A stretch of 13,854 nt of DNA, from assembly GCA_018241165.1 (NCBI GenBank), contig JAFEEK010000181.1, positions 1-13,854 of the forward strand, read 5' to 3'. A program made the position numbers and the translations under genes. Source of the stretch: Pseudomonadota bacterium. Lineage in GTDB: Bacteria > Pseudomonadota > Gammaproteobacteria > Xanthomonadales > Rhodanobacteraceae. Below the pieces are notes generated by a model. It ran no database searches. It saw only the letters and a list, made by a program, of their open reading frames with translations, and had not been told where the DNA came from. Shown here piece after piece: positions 1 to 13,854 of the stretch (its first letter is position 1; each line of letters begins with the position of its first letter).

Positions 1-167
1 AGGCCGAGCAGGTGGCGCAACAGCGTGCTTTTTCCGGAACCCGATCCGCCCATGATCACGCGGATCTCGCCGGCGTTCACCGCAAAATCCACGCCGTTGA
101 GAATGCGCCGCCGCCCGTACCAGGCCTCGAGTTTCTCTACGTCGATCAGTGGCTTGGCGGCATTCAT
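1..167 (-). CDS. mlaF: ABC transporter ATP-binding protein, MlaF-type (N-terminal part, runs off left edge)
   Basis: Only the first 55 codons are present. The translation starts MNAAKPLIDVEKLEAWYGRR and reaches a clear Walker A motif, GGSGSGKST, at about residues 41-49, followed by LLRHLLG. This is the nucleotide-binding subunit of an ABC importer/exporter. Because it follows an MlaE-type permease, I assign it to the MlaFE lipid-transport family, which moves phospholipid between inner and outer membrane with an MCE-domain partner. The ATG (167-165) overlaps the TGA of the permease gene (166-164) as ATGA, so translation is probably coupled; no strong ribosome binding site is visible. The MCE (MlaD-like) partner would lie beyond the left edge. 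The family is certain at the ABC-ATPase level; the MlaF assignment rests on context. Confidence 0.85.
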   Translation of the reverse strand, partial: MNAAKPLIDVEKLEAWYGRRRILNGVDFAVNAGEIRVIMGGSGSGKSTLLRHLLG

Positions 168-961
168 CGGTTGAGGAAAAACGAAAAAATCATGTCGACC
201 ACGATGATCCAGCAGATCGACAACACCACGGCGCGCGTGGTCGCACGGCCCACGCCTTCGGCGCCACCGGCCACGGAAAATCCCGTACTCACGCCGATCA
301 GGGTGATGAGCACGGCGAACACCGCGGACTTGGCGACGCCCTGCCAGACATCGCCCGCCGTCAACAACGACAAGGTTTGCATGATGTACGCCGCCGGCGT
401 GACGTTGAGCGCGGGCGAGGCATACAGTGCCGCGCCGGCAATGGAGACGGCATCGGCAAGAATCGTGAGCGCCGGCAGCATGACCAGCATGGCGATCAGG
501 GCCGGTGCGGCGAGGTAACGTACCGGCTCGATGCCCATCGTCGCCAATGCATCGACTTCCTGCGACACGCTCATCGAACCGATGCGCGCGGCCAGCGCGG
601 AACCCGAGCGTCCGGCGACGAGGATCGCGGTGATCAGTGCGCCGAATTCGCGCGTTACCGATTTCGCCACCGCGACCACGACCTGCGATTGCGCGCCGAA
701 GGCGGACAAAGCGGCGATGAACTGGATGCCAAGCATGATGCCGATGGTCAGCGCCAGCAGGACGACGATGGGCAGCGCATCCACGCCTATCTGGCGCATC
801 TGTTCGGCGACCGCACGCGGCCGCAGCGGCTGGCCGATGCGCCAGCCGGCGAAGGAAAAGTACAGGCTCTCGCCGAGCAACACCGCGGCGTAACCCATGC
901 CGGCGAGCGAACCGATGGTGGCGCGGCCGAGGGATTCGAGCGGGCGGACAATGACGTTCAT
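164..961 (-). CDS. mlaE: MlaE-type lipid ABC transporter permease
   Basis: This 265-residue integral membrane protein has the MlaE/TtgB permease hallmark at about residues 105-140: REFGALITAILVAGRSGSAL followed by AARIGSM and QEVDAL. About five hydrophobic segments are visible (near 60-85, 108-118, 150-180, 205-235, 243-263). In the family this subunit forms the inner-membrane channel of an MCE-type phospholipid transporter with an MlaF ATPase. The start ATG at 961 has a purine-rich AAAGGA about 11 bases upstream. It overlaps the ATPase gene by 4 bases. It is the only junction in this minus-strand cluster preceded by a long spacer (215 bases, with hairpins), so it may have its own transcription signal. 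Several paralogous MlaE systems occur in this bacterial group, so this copy need not be the canonical Mla locus. Confidence 0.9.
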   Translation of the reverse strand: MNVIVRPLESLGRATIGSLAGMGYAAVLLGESLYFSFAGWRIGQPLRPRAVAEQMRQIGVDALPIVVLLALTIGIMLGIQFIAALSAFGAQSQVVVAVAKSVTREFGALITAILVAGRSGSALAARIGSMSVSQEVDALATMGIEPVRYLAAPALIAMLVMLPALTILADAVSIAGAALYASPALNVTPAAYIMQTLSLLTAGDVWQGVAKSAVFAVLITLIGVSTGFSVAGGAEGVGRATTRAVVLSICWIIVVDMIFSFFLNR

Positions 962-1176
962 GGCTTAGCCCATCCTTTCCACAATGCGCCCGGGATAATG
1001 CACAAAACGAACACCCCCTTCGGCACGAAGGGGGTCGATGCGCAGCATCGGGGGGATGCCCAAAAAGAACATCCCCCTCAATCCCCCTTCCTGCGGAAGG
1101 GGGAAGCCGAACCCCTCTCCCGCAAGCGGGAGAGCGGGCAAGAGCAGCACCTCTATAACGGCTGGATTCGTGCGAG
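962..1176. other. Spacer between STAS gene and mlaE, hairpin-rich, no gene
   Basis: This 215-base stretch contains no credible gene. A 71-codon open frame on the minus strand is simply the translation of the palindromic repeats. On the minus strand, hairpin 1013-1035 is followed by a modestly T-rich run (GTTCGTTTTGTG), so it could act as a weak terminator or attenuator between the STAS gene and mlaE. A CATTAT hexamer at 1000-995 on the minus strand is a possible -10 box for mlaE, but no matching -35 is visible. Confidence 0.6.
1013..1134. repeat. Cluster of palindromic repeats (three strong hairpins, two weaker)
   Basis: There are three near-perfect stem-loops. The first is at 1013-1035 (10-base arms, ACCCCCTTCG, loop GCA). 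The second is at 1082-1104 (10-base arms, TCCCCCTTCC, loop TGC). The third is at 1115-1134 (9-base arms, CTCTCCCGC, loop AA). Between the first two lie a smaller hairpin at 1036-1050 (CGATGC/GCATCG) and a pair of 8-base arms at 1051-1058 and 1070-1077 (GGGGGATG/CATCCCCC). The third hairpin shares the core CCCGC-AA-GCGGG with the repeats inside the ATP-grasp gene at the right end of the window, so it appears to belong to a dispersed palindromic family. Such elements are common between genes in this group and can stabilise or end transcripts. Confidence 0.85.
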
Positions 1177-13313: not shown

Positions 13314-13854
13314 ATGACCTGCATTGCCCTGGTCACCGCCGCTGCCGCGCGCGCGCTGGACGAAGACCTCGCGCCGCTCGAAGCGGCGTTGCGCGAACTC
13401 GGCGCGGATGTCGCACTCGTCGATTGGGACGACGCCAGCGTGGACTGGTCGCGTTTCGATCTGGCCCTGCTGCGCTCGCCATGGGACTACATGCATCGCC
13501 TGCCGGAATTTCTCGCTTGGGCCGAACGTGCGTCGGCGCAGACGAGCTTGCACAATCCATTGCCCGTGATCCGCTGGAATACCGACAAGCATTATTTGCG
13601 CGATCTGGAAAAATCCGGTGTGGCGATCGTGCCGAGCGTGTTTGTCGAGCCGGGAGAGGATGCGCGAGCTGCGATCGAGGCGTTTTTGGAACGCGTCCCC
13701 CATCCGCCTTCGGCACCTTCCCCCGCGAGCGGGGGAAGGGAAAAGATCGAAGCTGCGGCACCTTCCCCCGCAAGCGGGGGAAGGAAAAACTTTGATGAGT
13801 TCGTGGTCAAGCCCGCGATCGGCGCGGGCTCGCGCGATGCGCAGCGCTACCATC
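13314..13854 (+). CDS. ATP-grasp ligase, RimK/glutathione-synthetase-like (partial, with in-frame repeat insert)
   Basis: The open frame runs 180 codons from ATG 13314 to the right edge without a stop. Residues 1-125 look like the pre-ATP-grasp region of prokaryotic RimK/glutathione-synthetase-like ligases: MTCIALVTAAAARALDEDLA, VDWSRFDLALLRSPWDYMHR, then NPLPVIRWNTDKHYLRDL. The ATP-grasp core begins at FVVKPAIGAGSRDAQRYH (163-180), where K166 is the expected ATP-contacting lysine. Between them, residues about 129-158 are two 15-residue units sharing APSPASGGR (134-142 and 149-157), encoded by tandem palindromic DNA repeats, which I take as an insertion. The frame is preserved, so the gene may still be functional, but an early pseudogene cannot be excluded without the rest. 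The acceptor substrate is unknown. It follows the ETF-QO gene by 2 bases. Confidence 0.85.
   Translation, partial: MTCIALVTAAAARALDEDLAPLEAALRELGADVALVDWDDASVDWSRFDLALLRSPWDYMHRLPEFLAWAERASAQTSLHNPLPVIRWNTDKHYLRDLEKSGVAIVPSVFVEPGEDARAAIEAFLERVPHPPSAPSPASGGREKIEAAAPSPASGGRKNFDEFVVKPAIGAGSRDAQRYH
13716..13784. repeat. Two tandem 45-base palindromic repeat units inside a coding region
   Basis: Copy 1 is at 13716-13739 and copy 2 at 13761-13784. Each is a perfect stem of 11 bases (CCTTCCCCCGC with GCGGGGGAAGG) around a 2-base loop, GA in copy 1 and AA in copy 2. They are exactly 45 bases apart, so both are read in the same phase and give APSPASGGR twice. The core matches the intergenic hairpin at 1115-1134. 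Confidence 0.92.

Follow-up and report, generated by a model that had tools for sequence, protein, structure and literature searches.

Described palindromic repeats and the present element

Short palindromic repeats that lie inside protein-coding genes are known from several bacteria. According to PMC2229807 and PMC10969869, Rickettsia palindromic elements (RPEs) are found in frame in many unrelated conserved genes; the main RPEs measure 105-146 bp (PMC2229807) or approximately 150 bp. Repetitive extragenic palindromes (REPs) with a GTAG or CGTC tag were published in 2013 from within the genes of several species, and that report (PMC3733652) also likens RPE-4 and RPE-6 to tagged REPs and describes different REPs at about the same site in the recB genes of two Xanthomonas species. 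The REPs of Xanthomonas and Stenotrophomonas described in PMC2817692 carry GTAG near their start. Here, a further palindromic element is presented from a stretch of 13,854 nucleotides (the window), which is the entire contig C90 of a draft Rhodanobacteraceae genome (G000; 2.45 Mb, 515 contigs, 90% complete) and contains two elements in frame within a DcsG-like ATP-grasp ligase gene.

Since in-frame intragenic repeats have been published both as RPEs and as GTAG/CGTC REPs, the kind of element is already known, and the view of the initial annotation that such elements are unusual outside Rickettsia does not stand against the 2013 report. The present element resembles RPEs by its in-frame insertion in unrelated conserved genes (17 palindromes in 15 genes) and differs from them in its length of about 48-52 bp and in the bacterial class that hosts it, a separation made by description. 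With the GTAG/CGTC REPs it shares short palindromes occurring as singles and dimers, some within conserved genes; in contrast, it has a second small hairpin, and neither GTAG nor CGTC was present at either end of 22 aligned type A copies. Frequent pairs, inverted where they were read in detail, are reminiscent of the REPs and REP doublets forming hairpins (REPINs) of REP-associated tyrosine transposases (RAYTs), although no RAYT was found in G000. New are the absence of a tag, the failure to find a Y1 transposase in element-rich congeners, a subtype enriched in coding sequence and the repeated use of a single protein loop. Among the matches listed in a search of open-licence papers (palindrome letters, coding palindromes, REP/RAYT, rhizobial mosaic element and Rhodanobacteraceae), none was a publication on this element family, those for the palindrome letters being judged by title.

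Two in-frame elements in an ATP-grasp ligase gene

The genome has multiple copies of the element; numerous conserved genes that are unrelated to each other carry it in frame, and aligned relatives are empty at some of these sites. We consider it likely that the hairpins of the window represent a small mobile palindromic element, probably non-autonomous, that is in frame in many genes and has refilled the same loop repeatedly. In the text that follows, G, P and L codes denote genomes, proteins and loci, and P0001 is the ATP-grasp protein of the window. The features of this gene are:

13314..13854, + strand: DcsG-like ATP-grasp ligase gene, first 180 codons, truncated by the contig end; the fold of the relative P0006 is close to that of DcsG 6jil
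13697..13744, + strand: first type A palindromic element, in frame, with CCCCCATCC leader, small hairpin, main palindrome and GGGAAAA tail, from alignment with family copies
13706..13714, + strand: small hairpin GCC-TTC-GGC, at the place of a perfect 3-5 bp stem in 21 of the 26 type A copies
13716..13739, + strand: main palindrome CCTTCCCCCGC-GA-GCGGGGGAAGG, perfect 11-base arms with loop GA, from the sequence
13753..13789, + strand: second element, lacking the CCCCCATCCGCC leader, 92% identical to the first over 37 bases
13761..13784, + strand: second main palindrome CCTTCCCCCGC-AA-GCGGGGGAAGG, perfect 11-base arms with loop AA, from the sequence

The open frame from 13314 to 13853 is uninterrupted through both palindromes and its translation includes PPSAPSPASGGREKIEAAAPSPASGGRKNFDEFVVKP. 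The two palindromes with perfect 11-base arms were recognized correctly by the initial annotation, as were their spacing of 45 bases, the retention of frame and the addition of about 30 residues. The exact tandem was not upheld: the copies match over 37 bases only, which rules out a clean 45-base tandem duplication. The outer bounds, given as 13701..13790, move to 13697-13789; the first element begins earlier, with its leader. The pair is direct and not inverted, and its two palindromes are able to pair strongly with one another on the window strand. The loop of P0001 is 55 residues long versus 25 in P0002; hence, the window elements contribute 30 residues. The four closest homologues, P0002-P0005, all lack residues ~129-158, as expected of the insertion that had been proposed. 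None of the six frames of the first copy contains a stop, and a coding signal in one and the same frame lies on either side of it; the second lies so close to the contig end that codon usage could not be scored. Both matches of a genome search with P0002 were located on C90, and an Rfam scan of the window returned no matches.

Many homologues of the protein were obtained from Rudaea, Tahibacter, Dokdonella and other Rhodanobacteraceae records. A Pfam scan of P0001 and P0006 gave no match above cut-off, although PF27100 was assigned to both by the protein search. The relatives P0006 and P0004 scored 328 and 332 bits against the NCBIfam equivalog NF058666 (DcsG), below its cut-off of 360 bits, and therefore no substrate is claimed for the enzyme. 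The best fold match to the P0006 model was DcsG (6jil_A, template modelling score 0.88/0.92, 41% identity), in agreement with a DcsG fold. The mean predicted local distance difference test (pLDDT) score of the model was 87; residues 133-143, inside the insert of P0006, fell below 50. This stretch was placed between a helix and the strand bearing the VVKP lysine, which we take to be the ATP-binding residue. The insert loop, for which a surface position had been suggested, is predicted from this relative to be disordered.

Structure of the element family

The core pattern YYYCCCGCNNGCGGGRRR was identified at 57 sites in the 2.45 Mb genome versus none in a reversed control. A set of 55 copies was read, comprising 52 of the 57 exact sites and three near-matches. 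Of the 26 type A copies, all but L145, L153, L170 and the second one of the window were aligned together with their flanks. These 22 share a leader resembling CCCCC(A/T)TCC, followed in turn by a small hairpin, the tetranucleotide ACCT, a main palindrome of 20-24 bases and a tail like GGGAAAA.

The small hairpin has a perfect stem of 3-5 bp and a three-base loop in 21 of the 26 type A copies, compared to 1.7% for shuffled letters. Its arms take five sequences (GCC, GGCC, GCCC, GGCCC and GGTC, the last as GGTC/GACC), so that pairing is kept as sequence and length change. A small hairpin GCC-TTC-GGC was read by eye in L143 and L168, beyond the 21, and none is present in L150, L170 or the second window copy. 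The type B half-type consists of CCCTCACCCCAACCC followed by the palindrome and opposes type A in inverted pairs; one type B half has stops in just one of its six frames. A neighbour within 130 bases was found for 28 of the 55 copies. All pairs read in detail, in partly overlapping sets of four and five, were inverted. By hand count, 16 of the 20 copies of the C-subtype are single.

Copies within conserved genes

From Pfam, NCBIfam, codon usage and comparison with relatives, 17 of the 55 copies were found in frame within 15 conserved genes. The hosts are the ATP-grasp gene (two copies), a peptidase S9, ValS, HrpB, ManC, FtsY, PgeF, ThiL, a multicopper oxidase, MurU, a FAD monooxygenase, the linker of an E2 acyltransferase (two copies), a DnaE-like DNA polymerase III alpha subunit, GcvP and an indolepyruvate oxidoreductase-like protein with a DUF6537 domain. 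Together with the 57 core sites, this supports the proposal of a repeat that spreads through coding sequence. In-gene copies occur in both orientations and in several frames. No out-of-frame copy inside a gene was seen among the 55 read, though decayed out-of-frame genes could escape the method.

By codon usage alone, 13 of the 55 copies were scored as in frame, 33 had a coding signal on one side, four lay between signals on opposite strands, two between signals that share a strand but not a frame, two had no signal on either side and one was at a contig edge. Both different-frame copies are intergenic: the upstream frame terminates ahead of the element and the downstream one starts behind it. 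Domain, open-frame and alignment evidence raised the 13 in-frame copies to 17 by adding the one in FtsY, both in E2 and the second in the window; a copy at Aat (L150) was excluded since it lies upstream of the domain. Open reading frames for Pfam were picked by length, and a subset of those spanning a copy was scanned.

Location in coding sequence varies with subtype, at 12 of 20 TCCCCC copies versus 4 of 34 TCTCCC copies (Fisher p = 4e-4, the mixed PgeF copy omitted), and with pairing, at 13 of 27 single copies versus 4 of 28 with a neighbour within 130 bases (p = 0.009); as copies were classed and counts entered by hand, both p-values are descriptive.

Alignments to congeners cover a selection of the genes found, with additional FtsY matches left unaligned. 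The insert is missing from all aligned congener genes for ManC (5/5), MurU (5/5) and FtsY (3/3). In the FAD monooxygenase, a similar insert is present at the same site in G007 and G001, none in G006 and a shorter, different stretch in G003. A similar ThiL insert is found in G009. As a separate observation, the draft genome contains two PgeF-like genes (G000:C131:1008-1475 and G000:C221:3299-3748, L305). The second is 80% identical to the query piece and the two differ at the same loop; they could be paralogues or reflect a strain mixture.

Mobilisation and wider distribution

Tagless as it is, the element could nevertheless belong to the REPs or REPINs spread by a RAYT, a Y1 tyrosine transposase that has been lost or was unassembled here. 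We regard this as the strongest alternative, though an improbable one. The pairing of 28 copies within 130 bases of another is REPIN-like, and the four searched genomes of the order outside the genus that have 59-136 core copies (G047, G048, G049 and G057) all have Y1_Tnp matches. Within the genus the pattern is reversed. A profile search for the Y1 transposase (PF01797) found none in G000, an incomplete assembly, and none in any of the seven element-rich congeners (G000 and six with 12-49 core copies), several of which are also incomplete; a match was found in five of nine congeners with eight or fewer copies, two of these below the curated cut-off. Several other genomes have PF01797 matches yet no element copies, and the 22 aligned copies have no GTAG/CGTC tag. 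From these distributions, a RAYT is unsupported for the genus and possible for the wider family.

With a G000 pair as query, 198 plasmid records gave some match. Sinorhizobium or Rhizobium accounted for 109, and in no record did the match reach 80% of the pair. One S. meliloti pSymB copy was read (110 bases, with no annotation at the site). Like the element, it contains both half-types, although arranged inside-out relative to G000. The plasmid repeat may correspond to the rhizobial mosaic element known as RIME. Among phage records, one had a partial match.

The ATP-grasp loop in homologues

To compare the loop among homologues, 308 rows were assembled from 235 proteins and 73 of 80 loci. The loop was plain in 262, type A in 23, type B in four, of a third type (RPAATLSHEGRG) in five and otherwise long in three; of the 11 that the patterns left unclassified, nine are plain by eye and two (P0014 and P0112) have element-like peptides. 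At least three peptide types (PSAPSPASGGR, LTPTLSPRGRG and RPAATLSHEGRG) fill the loop. Three loci duplicate the loop of a listed protein. More distant homologues do have inserts at the residues in question, as a native part of the domain would; that most loops are plain and the insert types differ fits insertion rather than a native domain.

Insertions of at least seven residues were found at this loop in 34 of 305 aligned rows (31 different loops), a number that is not a frequency since both protein searches were run with insert-bearing queries, versus three rows elsewhere (L075, P0056 and P0223, the last also among the 34). The 34 include P0187 and P0209, which are not clearly element-derived; the insert of P0090 is under the threshold, and 15 N-terminal extensions were set aside. 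A conserved-peptide scan revealed a palindromic insert in 4 of the 66 loci with a resolved loop (14 of the 80 loci were unresolved). Open frames with palindromic DNA in the loop are those of L060, L070, L077 and L108, with arms of 10-11 bases in the last three; L060 has a decayed copy with five-base arms. To these comes P0121, which represents 58 contigs. Of 30 loci from this and related genomes, 24 gave a loop that could be read, and a palindromic insert was present in three (own, G009 and G011). P0014, with two element-like peptides in the loop, fails to continue into the conserved VVKP region and appears to have a frameshift. Another loop of the ATP-grasp family is also affected: in L075, 33 residues that include an element-like peptide follow position 243 of the reference P0004.

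A single ancient insertion into the loop, inherited and mostly lost, would account for the near-identical HPPSAPSPASGGR insert in several P0033 relatives and for the clustering of the insert label on a FastTree tree built without the loop columns (none of 200 shuffles as low). Against this explanation stand the variety of peptide types and the 26 changes that the label requires, at least 10 of them forced by starred branches, where state changes are counted and gains and losses are not separated. P0001 itself groups with five insert-free rows (support 99), the nearest being P0002 (95% over 131 columns), while both of its palindromes retain perfect arms. An ancient single event is therefore unlikely.

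Origin and fate of the inserts

The findings are best accommodated by a mobile palindromic element. The element would insert widely in the genome, and those insertions that keep phase in tolerant surface loops would survive, presumably because the element sequence is nearly stop-free, with others being purged. For the DcsG-like enzyme we infer that a single loop, just before the strand with the presumed ATP-site lysine, tolerates inserts so readily that related lineages have filled it repeatedly. Most likely, what the insert adds to the protein is a disordered loop of neutral effect. More tentatively, the mostly single TCCCCCGC-core subtype may be adapted to coding sequence, as the six-frame openness of the window copy would suggest, may move within the genus by a non-Y1 route and may recolonise the same permissive loops in different lineages.

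Several points weigh against this reading. Neither a target-site duplication nor a mobilising enzyme was seen for the element, and the reading covers 52 of the 57 exact core copies. The window's own ATP-grasp gene is truncated; as it runs past the contig end at base 13854, this copy cannot be shown to be intact, though an insert of this type is present in full-length relatives with an open frame. The inserts are known from DNA, the peptides being predicted, and the apparent frameshift of P0014 was perhaps caused by an insertion. Gain and loss are indistinguishable on the tree, where the FastTree stars deserve less trust. Lastly, ValS, HrpB, ThiL and PgeF vary in length at the site in relatives and thus offer no clean empty state.

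Alternatively, the insert could be under selection, with an mRNA hairpin or the added peptide tuning the gene product. The window strand folds better than 200 of 200 shuffles (-54.8 kcal/mol, z -5.3), and one loop has been filled recurrently. However, the insert is missing in most homologue rows, its frames and sequences vary, and related copies are found in 14 other unrelated genes, leaving selection quite improbable. That the gene is a pseudogene in decay, or an artefact of assembly, might be suspected from a 515-contig draft, a contig end 65 bases past the second element and the broken appearance of P0014, but is highly improbable given the open frame, the same-frame coding signal flanking the first copy and the in-frame inserts at the same loop in other genomes and metagenomes.

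With 15 conserved genes affected in one small genome, DnaE-like, ValS and FtsY among them, and one enzyme loop repeatedly filled across related lineages, the element offers a dense natural experiment in which mobile DNA writes new peptides into seemingly working proteins. It makes testable which protein sites accept insertion and how elements move without a known transposase.

Other palindromes in the window

A further family member, of the T-subtype, lies elsewhere in the window:

1115..1134, no strand assigned: CTCTCCCGC-AA-GCGGGAGAG, with a coding signal on one side only

It is one of three palindromes within 120 bases (1014-1134), just past a MlaE-like gene (164-961, minus strand). The other two, CCCCCTTCG-GCA-CGAAGGGGG and CCCCCTTCC-TGC-GGAAGGGGG, look like members of other repeat families.
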